NCBI RefSeq assembly: GCF_004564275.1
Contig: NZ_SPDV01000008.1
Location: 62,001 to 126,000, forward strand
Direction: 5' to 3'
Source of the DNA: Sphingomonas parva (ex Maeng et al. 2020)
GTDB taxonomy: Bacteria; Pseudomonadota; Alphaproteobacteria; Sphingomonadales; Sphingomonadaceae
Length of the DNA: 64,000 bases
The translations under genes were made by a program, and so were the position numbers. The notes beneath the pieces are model-generated. The model saw only the letters and a program-made list of their open reading frames with translations. It searched no databases and was not told the DNA's origin. Of this stretch, positions 8,535-58,526 are shown piece by piece (position 1 is the stretch's first letter; each line of letters starts with the position of its first letter).

Positions 8535-10188
8535 GCACGCGCTCGGCGCCCTCGCGGCGGCTGCCCTCCTCCTGCCGCTCGCCCCCGCGGCGGCGCGGGT
8601 GGAGGAGGGCGATGCGCTCGCCGCTTATGCCCGCGCTCTCGCCGCCGACAGCTTCGGCGCGCAGCGCCAGGCCATCGCCGGCTATGCGGCTGCGCTCGAT
8701 CTCGCGCCGGACAATGAGGTGCTCGCCGCCCGCGCGCTCGAGGAGGCGCTCGCCGCAGGGGACCAGCCGCTCGCCGTCCGCGCCGCGAAGGTGCTCGAGG
8801 CGCGCAACAAGCTCGGTCCCGACGCGCGCCTCGTCCTTCTCGCCGACGCGGTGCGCCGCAAGGACTGGCGGGCAGCGGGCCTTAACGCCGATCGAATGGC
8901 CGAGGACCGGGTGTTCGTCTTCACCGCGCCGCTGCTCCACGCCTGGATCGCGGTCGGCACCGGCAAGGGCGATCCGGTCGCGCCGATCGTCGCGGCGGCG
9001 CGCGATCCGCTGGCGACCGCTTATGGCGCCGAGCAGCGTCCCTTGCTGCTGATCGCCGCCGGGCGGACGAAGGAGGGTCTCGCCGCGCTTGCCCCGCTGA
9101 TCGAGGGAAAAGAGCCCCGCGCCGAGCGCCTGCGCCTCGCTGCGGCGGCGCTCCTTGCCCGCAAGAAGGCGCGCAAGGACGCGCTGGCGCTCCTGCCCGA
9201 GGACCAGCCGAGCTTCGCCCGCGCCCGCAGCCTGATTGCCCGCGGCAAGCCGCTGATCGAAGGCGATCTCGCTGCCTGGGGCATTTCCTCCTTCCTCGTT
9301 CGAATCGCAGCCGATCTGCGCGGGCAGGAGGTCCCGGCGCTCGCCTTCAACCTCGCCCGCATCGCCACCTTCGCGGCGCCCCGCAACAGCGAGGCCTGGC
9401 TTGCCACCGCCGAGATGCTCGCGGGGCGCGGCCAGAACGAGGCGGCGCTCGCCGCTTTGGCGCAGGTTCCCGCCGACGACCTGCTCGGCCAGGCGGCGAT
9501 GGATCGGCGCCTGTCGCTTCTGGTCGAGAACGGCAACGCCGAGAGCGCCCTCGCCGATGCCCGCGCCGCGGCCGAAGCCCAGCCGAATTCGCCGGCGGCC
9601 TGGACCCGCCTCGCCGACCTCTTCGCCAAGCTCGAGCAGCATCGCGAGGCCGCCGACGCCTACGGCAAGGCGCTGCAGGCGATTGCCGCGGGCGCGGAGA
9701 GCGACACGCCGGAATGGGCGCTGTGGCTGCTGAGCGGCGCAGAGCTCAGCCGCGCGGGCGATTGGGAGCGGGGCAAGACAGCCCTGCAGCGTGCCTACAC
9801 GCTCGCGCCCCAGCAGCCGGTGGTGCTGAACCACCTCGGCTATTCGCAGCTCGAGCGGCGGGAGAATCTCGACGAGGCCGAACGGCTGATCCGCGAGGCG
9901 AGCAAGCTCGATCCGGACAGCGCCGCGATCACCGACTCGCTCGGCTGGGCGCTCTACGTGCGCGGCGATTATTCCAGGGCGATCGAGCTGCTCGAGCGCG
10001 CCGCCAAGGGAGAGCCGGCGGATTCCGCGATCAACGAGCATCTCGGCGACGCTTATTACAGCGCCGGCCGCCGCTACGAGGCGCGCTACGCCTGGCAGGC
10101 GGCTCTGATCTATGCCGAAGCCGAGGCGGCCGAGCGCCTGCGCGCCAAGATACTCCGCGGCCTCCATCCGGAGCTCGCCGCGCCCTGA
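8383..10188 (+). CDS. tetratricopeptide repeat protein, probably periplasmic; start unresolved
   Basis: The stop and reading frame are secure. The body has multiple TPR units, for example around 9830-10110 (LNHLGYSQLERRENLDEAER, then DSLGWALYVRGDYSRAIELL and EHLGDAYYSAGRRYEA). Near 8536 the frame reads CRHALGALAAAALLLPLAPA, a clear signal-peptide core, but no ATG, GTG or TTG lies just before it. The only upstream in-frame ATG is 8383, with GGAG 5 nt before it; using it adds about 50 Arg/Ser-rich residues that overlap ETF-QO by 152 bp. The next downstream start is GTG 8599, which loses the signal. The coordinates given are the maximal version. The product is probably an envelope scaffold protein; no specific function is recognisable. 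It is coupled to ispE. Confidence 0.8.
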   Translation: MSSSRKAGVRGSRSTPRIASIARRATSRTRPRTSTGSFPKAEEGRTIPTCRHALGALAAAALLLPLAPAAARVEEGDALAAYARALAADSFGAQRQAIAGYAAALDLAPDNEVLAARALEEALAAGDQPLAVRAAKVLEARNKLGPDARLVLLADAVRRKDWRAAGLNADRMAEDRVFVFTAPLLHAWIAVGTGKGDPVAPIVAAARDPLATAYGAEQRPLLLIAAGRTKEGLAALAPLIEGKEPRAERLRLAAAALLARKKARKDALALLPEDQPSFARARSLIARGKPLIEGDLAAWGISSFLVRIAADLRGQEVPALAFNLARIATFAAPRNSEAWLATAEMLAGRGQNEAALAALAQVPADDLLGQAAMDRRLSLLVENGNAESALADARAAAEAQPNSPAAWTRLADLFAKLEQHREAADAYGKALQAIAAGAESDTPEWALWLLSGAELSRAGDWERGKTALQRAYTLAPQQPVVLNHLGYSQLERRENLDEAERLIREASKLDPDSAAITDSLGWALYVRGDYSRAIELLERAAKGEPADSAINEHLGDAYYSAGRRYEARYAWQAALIYAEAEAAERLRAKILRGLHPELAAP

Positions 10189-11006
10189 TGGAAGAGACGG
10201 CGCGCGCCAAGCTCAATCTCGCGCTCCATGTCCGCGGGCGCGAGCCCGACGGCTACCATCGCATCGAGACGATCTTCGCCTTCTGCACGGACGGAGACCT
10301 GCTGCGCGTGGCGGCGGGGGAGGATCTCGGTCTCGAGCTCGTCGGGCCCTTCGCTGCGGGTCTCGCAGCGGAGCACGACAATCTCGTGCTGCGCGCGGCG
10401 CGTGCGCTCGCTGAGCGGCACGCGCCGGGCAGGGGCGCCCGCCTCACGCTCGACAAGCGCCTGCCGGTCGCCTCGGGGATCGGCGGCGGCTCGGCCGATG
10501 CCGCCGCGGCGCTGCGCCTGCTCGACCGCTGGTGGGGGCTGGATCTCGGCGAGGCGGGGCTGCTTGACATCGCCCGCGGCCTCGGCGCCGACGTTCCCGC
10601 CTGTCTGCTGTCGCGGCCGACCCGCGGCACCGGCCGCGGCGACGTGCTCGAGGAGATCGAGGATGCGCCCTTCCGCGGCCTTCCGGCGCTGCTCGTCAAT
10701 CCGCGCGTCGCCGTCTCCACCCCGGCCGTGTTCCGCGCCTGGGACGGCGTTGATCGCGGCCCGCTGCCTGGCGATGTCCGCGACGGCCGCAATGACCTTC
10801 AGCCTGCCGCCATCGCGGTGGCGCCGATCGTCGCCGACTGCCTGCGCCTGCTCGGCGAGCGCTTCGGCGCCACGCTGGTGCGCATGTCCGGCTCCGGCGC
10901 CACCTGTTTCGCCTTGTTCGACAATGAGGTGGACCGGGACCGGGCGGCCGCGAAGATGGCCGAGGAACGCCCCGGCTGGTGGCGGCTGGCGACCCGTCTT
11001 GCCTGA
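10188..11006 (+). CDS. ispE: 4-(cytidine 5'-diphospho)-2-C-methyl-D-erythritol kinase
   Basis: 272 residues. The ATG overlaps the TPR stop by one base (TGATG). GHMP-kinase motifs are present: ARAKLNLALHVRGREPDGYH at the N-terminus, PVASGIGGGSADAAAALR (the phosphate-binding loop) at about 92-109, and MSGSGATCFALF near the C-terminus. IspE phosphorylates CDP-methylerythritol in the non-mevalonate isoprenoid pathway that supplies quinones, undecaprenyl phosphate and carotenoids. Its length is normal. It is the last gene of the ETF-QO/TPR/ispE run and is followed by a structured intergenic region. Confidence 0.95.
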   Translation: MEETARAKLNLALHVRGREPDGYHRIETIFAFCTDGDLLRVAAGEDLGLELVGPFAAGLAAEHDNLVLRAARALAERHAPGRGARLTLDKRLPVASGIGGGSADAAAALRLLDRWWGLDLGEAGLLDIARGLGADVPACLLSRPTRGTGRGDVLEEIEDAPFRGLPALLVNPRVAVSTPAVFRAWDGVDRGPLPGDVRDGRNDLQPAAIAVAPIVADCLRLLGERFGATLVRMSGSGATCFALFDNEVDRDRAAAKMAEERPGWWRLATRLA

Positions 11007-11072
11007 TCCGGACGTCCCGTCGCGGGACGCATTTTCAACGCCTTAACCATCGTCGGCCGCACCCGTCCGTCG

Positions 11073-11088
11073 TGGCATGCTTCTTGCT
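11073..11088 (+). promoter_or_regulatory. sigma-54 (-24/-12) promoter
   Basis: TGGCATGCTTCTTGCT matches the RpoN consensus TGGCACG-N4-TTGCW at every defined position except one C-to-T change. It keeps GG and GC exactly 10 nt apart (11074-11075 and 11086-11087). A TTAACCAT word, the half-site recognised by alphaproteobacterial CtrA, lies just upstream at 11043-11050. Transcription would start near 11099, inside a region without a gene, and point toward the terminator at 11188-11218. Confidence 0.72.
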
Positions 11089-11098
11089 GCCAGCTCCG

Positions 11099-11218
11099 CG
11101 ACGAGTCGATGCGCCGCTCAGGGCGACGCTGACATTCGCGCATGCCCCCTCCGCCGTCCGCGGCGGAGGCGCCATGCTCAAACTCGAGAGCCGGTGCCGC
11201 GAGGCGCCGGCTCTTTTT
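11099..11218 (+). ncRNA. candidate sigma-54-dependent small RNA
   Basis: The predicted transcript runs about 120 nt from the sigma-54 start to the U-tract of the terminator. It can fold into three stem-loops: an outer ATGCGC/GCGCAT helix (11109-11114 with 11138-11143), a 9-bp CCTCCGCCG/CGGCGGAGG hairpin with a TCCG loop (11148-11156 with 11161-11169), and the terminator. The possible ORFs inside are very short (for example an 8-codon ORF at 11109) or run through the terminator, so a non-coding RNA is more likely than a gene. A leader for the enoyl-CoA hydratase gene at 11257 is the alternative, but the terminator lies in between. Function unknown. Confidence 0.55.
11188..11218 (+). terminator. 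strong intrinsic terminator
   Basis: GAGCCGGTGCC and GGCGCCGGCTC form an 11-bp stem with one G-U wobble around a GCGA tetraloop (11199-11202), immediately followed by TTTTT at 11214-11218. It should end transcripts from ispE and from the sigma-54 promoter at 11073. Confidence 0.88.
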
Positions 11219-11256
11219 ATCGGGACAAAGCCGCGCCGCCGCGCCATTCAGCCGCG

Positions 11257-11991
11257 ATGTTCGATCTCGCGCTCGCCGGCTCCGTCGCCCGCCTGACCCT
11301 CGTCCGGCCCGAGGCGCGCAACGCGATCCCCGCGCATGGCTGGGGCGATCTCGCCGCGCGGGCCGAGGAGGCCGTCGCGGCCGGCGCGCGCCTGCTCCTC
11401 GTCGGAGGGGCGGGTGCGGCCTTCTGCGCCGGGGCCGATCTCGGCGATTTCGATGCGCTGCGGGACGATCCGGACGCGCGCGCCCGCTTCCGCACCAACA
11501 TGGAGGACGCGCTCGAGCGCCTGGCCCGCGTGCCGATTCCGACGCTGGCCCTGATCCATGGCGCCTGTTTCGGCGCCGGCGTCGCCCTTGCCATGGCCTG
11601 CGACTTGCGCCTCGCCGCGCCCGCCGCCCGCTTCGGCATCACGCCGGCCAAGCTCGGAATCGCCTATCCACAATCGGACGTGGCCCGCCTGGTCGCGCTC
11701 GTCGGCCCCGGCCAGGCCTCGCGGCTGCTGTTCACCGCCGGGACGATCGACGCCGGCGAAGCCGCGCGGATCGGATTGGTCGAGATCGTCAGCGACGATC
11801 TCGAGAGCAGCGCGGAGGCGCTCACCCAGGTAGTGCTGGCGAATAGCGCGGGAAGCCTTGCCGCGTTGAAGCGCGGCATCGGCCTCGCCTCGGCGGGGCA
11901 CGCGCGCGATGCGGGGCAGGACGAGAGCTTCGAGGCGCTGTTCGGAGGCGAGGATCTCGCCGCCCGCCTCGCTGCGTTCCGGGGCCGCTAG
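11257..11991 (+). CDS. enoyl-CoA hydratase/isomerase family protein
   Basis: 244 residues, from the first ATG downstream of the terminator. The crotonase fold is evident from LTLVRPEARNAI, the oxyanion-hole segment FCAGADLGDF, and HGACFGAGVALAMACDLRLA, followed by FGITPAKLGIAYP. It is expected to hydrate or isomerise enoyl-CoA thioesters. Exact substrate and whether it is a true beta-oxidation hydratase cannot be judged, because the crotonase family is catalytically diverse. It is slightly short for the family (about 255-265), with a reduced C-terminal helix region. Confidence 0.85.
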   Translation: MFDLALAGSVARLTLVRPEARNAIPAHGWGDLAARAEEAVAAGARLLLVGGAGAAFCAGADLGDFDALRDDPDARARFRTNMEDALERLARVPIPTLALIHGACFGAGVALAMACDLRLAAPAARFGITPAKLGIAYPQSDVARLVALVGPGQASRLLFTAGTIDAGEAARIGLVEIVSDDLESSAEALTQVVLANSAGSLAALKRGIGLASAGHARDAGQDESFEALFGGEDLAARLAAFRGR

Positions 11992-12031
11992 CCGCCTTGC
12001 CAGCGCAGCGGCATTGGACCAGAAGCGGGCG

Positions 12032-12448
12032 ATGATCCGGCCGATCCTCTTGCTCTCGCTGATCCTTCCGCTCGCCGCCTGCGGCGACGCGCCGGAAGAG
12101 GGGCAGACCGTGCCGATCACCGAGGGCGGCAAGACGGTCGAGAGGCCCGCCGCGCCGCTTGCCGAGGGCGCCGAGCGCGTCGAATGCGCGGTCGCCGGCG
12201 CCGAGACGTTCGAGCCGGTCTGCGCGGTCGAGCGCAGCCCGAGCGATCAAGGCCTGGTCCTCACCATCCGCGCACCAAGCGGCGGCTTCCGGCGGCTGCT
12301 CGTCACCAGGGACGGGCGCGGCGTGATCGCCGCGGACGGCGCGATGCCGGCGGCCGTGACGCCGCTCGGCCCCGATCGCATCGAGGTGGCGATCGAGGGC
12401 GATCGCTACCGGCTTCCCGCCACCGTCCGCCCGATCGCCGGACAGTGA
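12032..12448 (+). CDS. small lipoprotein of unknown function
   Basis: 138 residues. MIRPILLLSLILPLAACGD is a lipoprotein signal with lipobox LAAC (Cys 17). The mature part contains a C-x-C pair (VECAVAG...PVCAVER) and a beta-rich domain. It is probably anchored to the envelope. The stop overlaps the GTG start of nnrE/nnrD (GTGA at 12445-12448), so the two are co-translated. No characterised family is recognised. Confidence 0.8.
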   Translation: MIRPILLLSLILPLAACGDAPEEGQTVPITEGGKTVERPAAPLAEGAERVECAVAGAETFEPVCAVERSPSDQGLVLTIRAPSGGFRRLLVTRDGRGVIAADGAMPAAVTPLGPDRIEVAIEGDRYRLPATVRPIAGQ

Positions 12449-13833
12449 CTCCCGGCCCGATCCTGACGGCCGCCGAGATGCGTGCGGCCGAGGCGGCCGT
12501 GATCGCCGCCGGCACTCCGGAGAGGCTGCTAATGGAACGCGCCGGCCTTGCCGCCGCGGACGCGATCCGGCTCTACGCCGGCAACCTTCCCGCCCTGGTC
12601 GTCTGCGGTCCGGGCAACAACGGCGGCGACGGCTATGTCGTCGCGCGTTTGCTGCGCGAACGCGGACTCGACGTCCGGGTTGCCGCGCTCGCCGATCCGC
12701 GCAGCGAGGCGGCCCGCCAGGCCCGCTCCCGCTGGCCGGGAGAGGTCGAGAGCCTCGGCGAAGCGAGGCCCGCGCCGCTGCTGATCGATGCGCTGTTCGG
12801 CACGGGCCTCACCCGTCCGCTCGACGAGCCCGTGGCGCAGGCGCTGGCGCGGCTCGCCGCGGCCGCACGGATAAGGGCCTCGCTCGACCTCCCGAGCGGC
12901 GTCGCGACCGACGACGGCGCCATTCTCTCGCCGGTCACCGATTACGATCTCACGATCACGTTCGGCGCGCTGAAGCCGTCCCACCGTCTCCAGCCCGCCG
13001 CCCGCCACATGGGCCGTCTGGTTCTCGCCGACATCGGCGTGCCGGTCGAGAGCCGCCTTCAGGACATCGTCCGGCCCTTGCTCGTCGCGCCCGGGCCGGC
13101 CGACTACAAGTACAGCCGCGGCTATGTCGCGACCATCGCCGGAGAGATGCCGGGCGCGGCGGCGCTCACCGCGGTCGCGGCGCTGCGCGGCGGCGCCGGC
13201 TACGTCCGCCTCGTCGCCCCTGAGATCGTGCCGGGGGTGCCGAGCGCGATCGTCCAGGGTAAGGGCGAGGCTGCGGAGGTGCTGGCCGATCCGCGGGTCA
13301 GCGCGGCGGCGATCGGGCCGGGTCTGGGCAAAAGCGACGAGGCCCGCGCCCTGCTCGAGCAGGTGCTCGCCGCCGATGCCAAATTGGTGCTCGACGCCGA
13401 TGCCCTGACGCTCGCCGCCGAGGCGGGAAGCGACATCCTCCACCGCGCCCGCTTCACGCCGGTCCTCACCCCGCACGCCGGAGAGTTCTCGCGGCTCTTC
13501 CCCGCATGCCAGGGCAGCAAGGTCGATCGTGCCCGCCAGGCGGCGCGGGAGGCCCGGGCGGTGATCGTCTACAAGGGGCCGGACACGGTGATTGCCGATC
13601 CCGAGGGGCGCGCCGCCATCGCCGCCGCGGCGCCGCACTGGCTGGCCACCGCCGGCACCGGCGACGTGCTCACCGGCGTGATCGCGGCGATGCGTGCCTG
13701 GGGCTTCGAGGCGTTCGAGGCGGCCTGCGCCGGCGTCTGGCTGCACGGACGTGCGGCCGAGCTCGCTGGCCCCGGCATGATCGCCGACGATCTGCCCGGC
13801 CATCTGCCGGCCGCCTTCGCGGAATGCCTATGA
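12445..13833 (+). CDS. nnrE/nnrD: bifunctional NAD(P)H-hydrate epimerase / ADP-dependent NAD(P)H-hydrate dehydratase
   Basis: 462 residues with a GTG start (GTG-ACT-CCC) overlapping the previous stop. The N-terminal YjeF_N epimerase domain (residues 1-200) has VVCGPGNNGGDGYVVARLL. The C-terminal ribokinase-like dehydratase domain (about 215-460) has LTPHAGEFSRLFP and GTGDVLTGVIAAM. Together they repair NADHX/NADPHX formed by damage to the nicotinamide cofactors. The two-domain fusion and the length are usual for bacteria. The 3' end overlaps the next gene by ATGA. Confidence 0.94.
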   Translation: MTPGPILTAAEMRAAEAAVIAAGTPERLLMERAGLAAADAIRLYAGNLPALVVCGPGNNGGDGYVVARLLRERGLDVRVAALADPRSEAARQARSRWPGEVESLGEARPAPLLIDALFGTGLTRPLDEPVAQALARLAAAARIRASLDLPSGVATDDGAILSPVTDYDLTITFGALKPSHRLQPAARHMGRLVLADIGVPVESRLQDIVRPLLVAPGPADYKYSRGYVATIAGEMPGAAALTAVAALRGGAGYVRLVAPEIVPGVPSAIVQGKGEAAEVLADPRVSAAAIGPGLGKSDEARALLEQVLAADAKLVLDADALTLAAEAGSDILHRARFTPVLTPHAGEFSRLFPACQGSKVDRARQAAREARAVIVYKGPDTVIADPEGRAAIAAAAPHWLATAGTGDVLTGVIAAMRAWGFEAFEAACAGVWLHGRAAELAGPGMIADDLPGHLPAAFAECL

Positions 13834-37861: not shown

Positions 37862-37901
37862 GCGGCCGCGGCTGCCGTGATCTTGCGCGATGGGGTGAGG
37901 T

Positions 37902-37991
37902 GGGAGCCGGGACGACCCGACACGAAACTCGTTGCGGCTGCTTCCTTCCGGACCTGACCGGGTTGGCGAGAGCATCGTCCGCCCGACTCCC
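37902..37991 (-). ncRNA. ffs: signal recognition particle RNA (small, 4.5S-type)
   Basis: The minus strand carries GGGAGTCGGGCGGACGA at the 5' end, the universal SRP core GGTCAGGTCCGGAAGGAAGC, and a closing TCGTCCCGGCTCCC at the 3' end. The two ends can pair. The size (about 90-97 nt) and position next to dnaX are typical of alphaproteobacteria. It would work with Ffh and with the FtsY encoded at 62.3 kb in co-translational membrane targeting. Ends are approximate to a few nucleotides. Confidence 0.93.
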
Positions 37992-38098
37992 GCTGCGCAT
38001 ATGGCCGCTGATCGGCAGCGATGCAAGGTGGCTGCTCGGCGGGACCCCGTAGTTCATCGGCTTCGACACGCCGGAGCCGTTCGTCTAGTGTTCCGGCG

Positions 38099-50186: not shown

Positions 50187-50585
50187 TTGCCAGAGGGCCG
50201 GGCGGCCGCGCGCCGAAGCTTCAGCGAGGTGCGAGGAAAGTCCGGGCTCCACGGAACGACGGTGCCGGGTAACGCCCGGCGGGGGCGACCCCAGGGACAG
50301 TGCAACAGAAAGCAGGTCGCGCCAGGCCTCGGCCGAGATCTTCGGAGGCGTGACATTGAAAGGGTGCGGTAAGAGCGCACCGCGGCCCCGGCAACGGCGG
50401 CCGGCACGGTAAACCCCACCGGGAGCAAGACCGAATAGGGATGGCTGGGCTCGTTCCGCCCTTTGCCGTCCGGGTTGGTTGCTGGAGGGGCGGAGCGATC
50501 CGTCTCCTAGAGGAATGGCCGCACATCCGTCGATGCCTCACGGCTATGGCGGAGGACAGAACCCGGCTTACAGGCCCTCTGGCAA
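50187..50585 (+). ncRNA. rnpB: RNase P RNA (bacterial class A)
   Basis: The 5' end TTGCCAGAGGG pairs with 3' CCCTCTGGCAA. Conserved elements are present: GAGGAAAGTCCGGGCTCC near the 5' end, ACAGAAAGCAG, and the 3' AACCCGGCTTACAGG. The molecule is about 400 nt, followed by TTTTT at 50586-50590. It processes tRNA 5' ends with RnpA. Ends are approximate. Confidence 0.95.
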
Positions 50586-50627
50586 TTTTTGTCCCCGCCG
50601 TCGCAGGGACCGGATAGATGAGAGTGT

Positions 50628-57374: not shown

Positions 57375-57390
57375 TCCAAGCTCCGTGCCA
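57375..57390 (-). promoter_or_regulatory. sigma-54-like promoter for the Psp operon
   Basis: Minus-strand TGGCACGGAGCTTGGA has a perfect -24 TGGCACG and the correct 4-nt spacing to TTGG (consensus TTGC), one mismatch at -12. The divergent pspF gene encodes the required activator, and the site is about 57 bp before the first small gene. Transcription would start near 57364. Confidence 0.65.
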
Positions 57391-57491
57391 GATTGCGGAA
57401 GTGGCGGATTTCTGCGGTTTCTCGCTGACCGGGAGGTGGGGCAAAATCATAGTTCTTGCCAACAGCTAGGAAAAATGGCCAACAATCGGGA

Positions 57492-58526
57492 ATGGAGCGC
57501 AGTACCCAGCTGGTCGGACAATCCTCGTCCTTTCTCGACGCGGTCGAGCGGGCCAGCCGCGCCGCGCCGCTCGACCGCCCGGTCCTGGTGATCGGCGAGC
57601 GGGGCACCGGCAAGGAGCTGATCGCCGAGCGTCTGCACCATCTGTCGGCACGGTGGGACGGCCCCCTGGTGGCGATGAACTGCGCCGCGCTTCCCGAGAC
57701 CCTGATCGAGGCCGAATTGTTCGGCCACGAGGCGGGGGCCTTCACCGGCGCCGCCAAGGCGCGCGCCGGCCGCTTCGAGGAAGCCGACGGCGGCACCCTG
57801 TTCCTCGACGAGCTGGCGACGCTCAGCCAGGCCGCGCAGGAGCGCCTGCTGCGAGTCGTCGAATATGGCGAGGTCACCCGGATCGGGGCGTCGAAGCCGG
57901 TGCAGGTCGACGTCCGCATCGTCGCCGCCACCAACGAGGATCTGCCGAGACTCGCCGAGCGCAATCGCTTCCGCGCCGACCTCCTCGATCGTCTGTCGTT
58001 CGAGGTCGTCACCCTGCCGCCGCTGCGGCACCGCAGCAGCGACATTCCGATCCTCGCGGATCACTTCGCCCGGCGGATGGCGCTCGAGCTGGAATGGCCG
58101 CGCTGGACCGGCTTCTCGAGCCGCGCGCAGGATCGGCTGTTGGCCTATGACTGGCCGGGGAACGTCCGCGAGCTGCGCAACGTCGTGGAGCGCGCCGTCT
58201 ATCGCTGGGAGCAGCCTGACGAGCCGGTCGACACCATCCAGTTCGATCCGTTCGAATCGCCGTGGCGGCCGAAAACCTCGCTGGCCGCCCCGACCGAGGC
58301 GTCGGCGGAGAGCGGGCCGGCGGCGCTGCCGCCGCCCGCGCAGGCCACGGCCTACGATCCTGCCTCTTGCGCCGATTTCCGTCTGGCGATCGCGGAATAT
58401 GAGAAAGCGATTCTCGCTGCCGCGCTGGAGAAATGCCGCTGGAACCAGCGCGCTGCCGCGGCCGCGCTCAGCCTCAGCTACGATCAGCTCCGCCACGCCA
58501 TGAAGCGGCACCAGCTCGCCGGCTGA
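57492..58526 (+). CDS. pspF: Psp operon sigma-54 activator
   Basis: 344 residues. AAA+ domain with Walker A GERGTGKE (35-42), the sigma-54 contact loop GAFTGA (82-87) and Walker B GGTLFLDE (100-107). C-terminal Fis-type helix-turn-helix (WNQRAAAAALSLSYDQLRHA). It lacks an N-terminal regulatory domain, as expected for PspF, which PspA inhibits directly. Start ATG 57492 was preferred to TTG 57456. Divergent from the Psp unit. Confidence 0.93.
   Translation: MERSTQLVGQSSSFLDAVERASRAAPLDRPVLVIGERGTGKELIAERLHHLSARWDGPLVAMNCAALPETLIEAELFGHEAGAFTGAAKARAGRFEEADGGTLFLDELATLSQAAQERLLRVVEYGEVTRIGASKPVQVDVRIVAATNEDLPRLAERNRFRADLLDRLSFEVVTLPPLRHRSSDIPILADHFARRMALELEWPRWTGFSSRAQDRLLAYDWPGNVRELRNVVERAVYRWEQPDEPVDTIQFDPFESPWRPKTSLAAPTEASAESGPAALPPPAQATAYDPASCADFRLAIAEYEKAILAAALEKCRWNQRAAAAALSLSYDQLRHAMKRHQLAG

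Follow-up and report, generated by a model that had tools for sequence, protein, structure and literature searches.

Does the gap between ispE and an enoyl-CoA hydratase gene in Sphingomonas parva hold a sigma-54-dependent small RNA (sRNA) gene, as the original prediction proposed, or only the ispE terminator beside a chance promoter match? We addressed this question by comparative analysis of the window, i.e. the whole 64,000-nt stretch of DNA under study, in whose positions coordinates are given.

Layout of the ispE-hydratase interval

The predicted unit occupies a 250-bp gap, flanked upstream by ispE (10188-11006) and downstream by an enoyl-CoA hydratase/isomerase family gene (11257-11991); Pfam bore out both identities, ispE being a GHMP kinase gene. 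A sigma-54 −24/−12 promoter element, TGGCATGCTTCTTGCT, lies at 11073-11088 on the plus strand, with GG-N10-GC intact and, as had been claimed, a single mismatch from TGGCACGN4TTGCW. Judged from spacing, transcription is predicted to start at 11099 (+), 12 nt past the C of the −12 element. Further upstream, the CtrA-like half-site TTAACCAT was found where described (11043-11050, +), albeit 22 rather than 23 bases before the TGGC. Overlooked in the original prediction was a perfect 15-bp palindrome, GTCCCGTCGCGGGAC, at 11014-11028 (−85 to −71 from the predicted start; no strand assigned). It represents a candidate enhancer (upstream activator) site, based on its consensus and on matrix matches before the activator genes described below.

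Taken alone, the promoter match is not beyond chance. Exact matches to TGGCAYGN4TTGCT number four in the 4.49-Mb genome versus none for the reversed pattern; the level of the 11073 site, one mismatch from TGGCACGN4TTGCW, is reached 21 times versus 31 times for the reversed control, so that the match by itself proves little and conservation decides. This chance level, together with the position directly 3′ of ispE, speaks for an accidental −24/−12 match, with hairpins that belong to nothing more than the ispE terminator or 3′ UTR. The arrangement TTAACCAT-N22-TGGC without mismatch occurs a single time in the genome, at this locus, and rpoN is present in all 26 genus genomes.

Folding of the RNA (11090-11220) yielded −72.5 kcal/mol (z = −4.57), matched by none of 200 shuffles, and three stem-loops in all, in agreement with the claim of two stem-loops besides the terminator. 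Stem-loop 1 (11102-11138, +) has a CGAGU/AUUCG closing helix and an internal loop, CGAN/NGAC, that is kept within the genus. Stem-loop 2 (11140-11177, +) has 94.4% of its cells paired and two-sided changes in nine of ten pairs. Stem-loop 3 runs into a T5 tract (11214-11218) and forms a putative intrinsic terminator (11186-11218, +), whose end at 11218 had been placed correctly and whose stem comprises 13 pairs instead of the 11 originally counted. Although a simple terminator scan of 10000-12500 reported no site, the fold and a run of at least four Ts in 19 of 21 genus members (only 5 of 14 modules from other genera) point to intrinsic termination. The predicted sRNA is ~120 nt long (11099-11218, +). 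In some genomes, the 3′ end of ispE looked, by eye, able to pair with the 5′ end of the RNA; others lacked this pairing, and the idea was discarded.

Conservation and separability of promoter and RNA

Homologues were first collected by BLASTN of 11007-11240 against 60 relatives, nearly all of them lying beside ispE, and a covariance model (R1) was built from 12 RNAs aligned from the predicted start, i.e. with the promoter excluded. Of the 26 genomes of the genus, 21 gave an R1 match at E ≤ 1.3e-9, all other matches being 0.003 or worse. Each of the 21 positive genomes contains TTAACCA-N23-TGGC-N7-TTGC, which places TTAACCA exactly 30 bp ahead of TGGC; since the 12 training RNAs had been picked with this pattern, the remaining nine form the independent set, and here promoter and spacing were kept in nine of nine. 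Within stem-loop 1, CGRGTCGA was found in all 21 genus members, GACATYCG in 20 of them. The conserved block begins 2-5 nt after the predicted +1 (the motif being sought only from about −4 to +20) and positions −11 to +1 differ among relatives, as expected of a true start.

In an alignment fitted to the model, which hence leans towards it and to which 29 of 38 offered sources matched at E ≤ 0.01, 92.0% of cells are paired (76.1% in shuffles), compensatory changes on both sides affect 21 of 25 base pairs (13.0 in shuffles), and covariation scores 0.517 (0.224 in shuffles). None of 500 shuffles reached any of five structure measures, and sliding the pairing partners lowered pairing to 32-45%. Indeed, 14 of 25 pairs are already changed on both sides in an unfitted alignment of 12 RNAs. 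Linkers and apical loops vary, in contrast to the conserved helices and stem-loop 1 internal loop. The check named in the original prediction, namely that sister species retain the −24/−12 element and covarying stems, thus came out in its favor.

Start codons occur inside the RNA in most genomes, which might suggest that the locus encodes a small protein. However, no ORF is common to the 29 aligned RNAs, nearly all ORFs stay open through the 3′ end, and conservation follows the helices; a coding function is scarcely credible, in line with the initial judgment that the transcript lacks a convincing ORF. Conserved structure with covariation and the lack of a common ORF, both seen here, are features of a bacterial sRNA gene.

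Three relatives keep ispE and the hydratase gene at a distance of 3 bp (G017), 44 bp (G012) or 114 bp (G019), these intervals containing neither a sigma-54 element nor TTAACC nor a palindrome, and no unit was found after ispE in G007. No ispE match was found in G023, whose RNA status was therefore left unassigned in the counts. Because these three relatives retain the gene pair without promoter and RNA, the unit is not merely the ispE terminator. Their example, a unit with no ispE match beside it (L139 in G002), the nine independent genus matches and the covariation of the stems all argue against an ispE 3′ UTR with a fortuitous −24/−12 match, which we regard as most unlikely.

The same genomes bear on the idea that the unit serves the hydratase gene as a leader under sigma-54 control, be it a 5′ UTR or an attenuator, as might be suspected from the hydratase match that follows the unit in 19 of 21 genus loci. 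Yet the terminator precedes the hydratase gene, the latter stands without the unit in three genomes, and no hydratase match was found after the unit in G018, G021, G165, G070 and G083 (loci L060, L144, L068/L172, L177 and L189); a leader is very unlikely. By eye, a short GACAA-like word is discernible after the terminator (about 11220-11232 in the window), and likewise in many relatives. The unit-less G012 and G019 retain it in their ispE-hydratase interval; it is perhaps part of the hydratase promoter.

The conserved promoter, the covarying stems and the joint absence of both while ispE stays support the RpoN-dependent sRNA that had been proposed, and the locus is very probably a real, undescribed sigma-54 sRNA gene.

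Beyond the genus, R1 gave 16 matches over 397 family genomes searched with stricter filters, eight of them in the genus. Four matches in other genera (L066-L069) lie after ispE, each with its own −24/−12 element; those at L070-L073 lie away from ispE and were taken as chance. Over 296 genomes from the order, many of the same family, R1 gave four matches, none of them new. When the stretch after ispE was scored for promoter, palindrome and 5′ motif in 60 of the 146 ispE-containing family genomes, taken roughly from those with better scores and hence weighted towards near relatives, 13 of the 60 genomes, all from other genera, scored at least 15, as compared to a maximum of 14 in 300 shuffles; the score was devised after examples had been seen, and the shuffles were mononucleotide and of slightly shorter stretches. 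Finally, a promoter and RNA motif scan of an 84,980-species collection returned 37 places, 16 beside ispE and 21 elsewhere, the latter being taken as chance from a hand estimate of ~18 and not inspected singly. Some other genera keep the predicted promoter and RNA at the same place, after ispE, and as far as these searches show, the putative sRNA family is restricted to sphingomonads and to one neighborhood.

As for the CtrA-like half-site, all 21 genus members have TTAACCA at this distance of 30 bp from TGGC, and none of the 14 modules from other genera does. The full CtrA site has the consensus TTAA-N7-TTAA, and only the half-site was found at the locus. The claim of a CtrA-like element therefore stands for an invariant word within the genus, but not for a complete site or for a part common to all modules.

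A candidate activator

In 33 of 35 modules the best palindrome gives GTSCC-N5-GGSAC (L069 and L132 lie outside this set). It starts 57-60 bp before the TGGC in 31 of these 33 and at −48 and −68 in one each; palindromes were chosen as the best match 25-75 bp upstream, a procedure that favors finding a match without favoring any single position. Displacements by roughly one turn of the helix fit an enhancer at sigma-54 promoters.

By PF00158 matches, genus genomes encode at least 3-9 activators each. EBP-C is an orphan NtrC-type activator of 485 aa encoded in the same genome (C65:771-2225); at 413 bits against TIGR01818 (NtrC; cut-off 558.6), it is NtrC-like, not NtrC. Within the genus, EBP-C was found in 20 of 21 RNA-positive genomes at 79-100% identity and was not found in the RNA-positive G011 (300 contigs). 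Identity is 58-60% in the RNA-negative G007, G012 and G019, 85% in the RNA-negative G017 and 84% in G023. If identities of at least 79% are counted as presence, Fisher's test for EBP-C versus RNA gives p = 0.007, uncorrected for kinship. The divergence in G007, G012 and G019, which have also lost the sRNA, may reflect either relaxed constraint or replacement. The survey covered 80 genomes, including 37 of 47 non-carriers, with the ambiguous other-genus genomes G133, G147 and G098 excluded from the carrier counts. In other genera, EBP-C was present in all 14 clear carriers (at least 663 bits) versus 23 of 37 non-carriers (Fisher p = 0.005, uncorrected for kinship), and in the non-carriers G190, G191 and G124 it is as well conserved as in carriers (653-674 bits). 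EBP-C presence thus tracks the predicted sRNA unit, with exceptions. Its DNA-binding tail is nearly identical in 33 of 47 loci, namely those that were readable, with or without a module, which argues that EBP-C has other work too.

Scanning the surroundings of 47 EBP-C genes (169.5 kb) with a matrix built from the 33 module palindromes gave 37 matches of at least 8 bits. Ten of them, including the three best, lie within 80 nt before the EBP-C start (0.82 expected); the genomes concerned (G156, G070, G133, G099, G098, G060, G175, G135, G131 and G018) include non-carriers and ambiguous genomes besides clear carriers, and of the seven genus loci only that of G018 is represented. The 200 column-shuffled matrices hit 1.5 EBP-C loci on average and 9 at most, compared to 10 for the real matrix. 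In several genera, EBP-C seems to control its own gene via GTSCC-N5-GGSAC.

Could a different activator drive the sRNA? PEP-CTERM-type, PspF-type, NtrX-like, exporter-linked or unlisted activators come into question; the majority of these types appear to occur in almost every genus genome (among the matches listed), and the exceptions to the EBP-C pattern (G011, G017, G190, G191, G124 and the single palindrome among seven genus loci) leave room for them. Against this, the exporter and tolC sites use a different, 14-bp palindrome, and none of 21 other activator genes, all from the genus, has a module-type palindrome in the preceding 80 nt, as opposed to ten EBP-C genes; with 0.41 expected, this is a weak control. 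We consider another activator possible but rather unlikely, and EBP-C is probably the activator of the sRNA gene, being the likeliest candidate by these patterns.

The exporter and tolC promoters belong to another sigma-54 regulon in the same genome (L031/L195 on C7, about 58.3-58.9 kb, and L032 at C8:16552). L031/L195 lie where a response-regulator activator gene diverges from an HlyD-like exporter gene, and the L032 promoter lies between isoaspartyl-methyltransferase-like and TolC-like genes (gene names assigned by eye). Their common palindrome, GTYCG-N4-CGRAC, often in doublets and also seen in G005, G012 and G020, speaks against an enhancer shared with the sRNA. The window itself holds a PspF-type activator gene (57375-58001, C8:119375-120001; 497 bits versus a TIGR02974 cut-off of 443.6), with a one-mismatch −24/−12 match just before it on the opposite strand.

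A role in motility, one of the functions originally suggested, is weakly disfavored by the distribution of activators, which were grouped by length, score and position (for G000, five of six are among the matches listed). The RNA-positive G018 has five activators among the matches listed, none recognized as flagellar-type: four were sorted by their tails as PEP-CTERM-type, EBP-C, exporter-linked and PspF-type, and the fifth was taken as NtrX-like. The RNA-negative G007, G017 and G019, in turn, seem to have flagellar-type activators (among the matches listed), so flagellar control appears doubtful.

Proposed mode of action and known systems

Promoter, palindrome, RNA structure, conservation and joint absence can be read from the DNA; from them we infer transcription, EBP-C binding and action in trans. 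An NtrC-type response regulator, likeliest EBP-C, would bind the palindrome at 11014-11028 and, together with sigma-54 RNA polymerase at 11073-11088, would start transcription near 11099. The resulting ~120-nt RNA is predicted to fold into two conserved stem-loops plus the terminator and would act in trans. That EBP-C and sigma-54 switch on a free-standing, structured, trans-acting sRNA is likely in our estimation. Given this pattern of variable linkers and apical loops but conserved helices and internal loop (stem-loop 1), our guess is that targets would be recognized via RNA structure or the 5′ end rather than a loop seed. More speculatively, EBP-C, autoregulated via GTSCC-N5-GGSAC, might form the core of an undescribed sphingomonad circuit with the structured RNA as a main output, acting as a GlmY-like protein-binding decoy and not by conventional antisense; we hold this bolder version to be improbable.

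If true, the unit adds a sigma-54 sRNA family to the sphingomonads, for which our search of the openly accessible literature showed none. It comes with a complete control region, EBP-C as candidate activator and genomes in which the unit is naturally deleted, so that its regulon, signal and target are open to direct tests.

At gathering thresholds, Rfam 15 identified only RNase P RNA (class A; 50190-50586, +) and small SRP RNA (37898-37992, −) in the window. The scan suggested by the original prediction thus returned no family at the sRNA locus, GlmY/GlmZ, Qrr, ar35 and suhB included. The best sub-threshold scores belong to two alphaproteobacterial sRNAs, ar35 (RF02346; 17.9 bits, gathering 45, E = 0.29) and suhB/mmgR (RF00519; 15.4 bits, gathering 41, E = 0.97), both at chance level in this 351-base search.

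The Qrr sRNAs of Vibrio are transcribed by sigma-54 with LuxO, and CrcZ and NrsZ of Pseudomonas likewise depend on sigma-54 and an enhancer-binding protein. The same combination is proposed to drive the sRNA here, which differs from these RNAs in having no Rfam match at gathering; EBP-C reaches 360 bits against the LuxO profile, whose cut-off is 800. GlmY of E. coli, as described in PMC7073468, is transcribed by sigma-54 with the response regulator QseF/GlrR and serves as a decoy of RapZ. The present sRNA has no Rfam match to GlmY and lies in another gene neighborhood, and in the promoter scan no sigma-70 match overlaps the window's sigma-54 promoter. What it would have in common with GlmY (PMC7073468) is the overall design, i.e. 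a structured, stem-loop sRNA whose sigma-54 promoter depends on a response regulator of the NtrC type, for which EBP-C is the candidate here.
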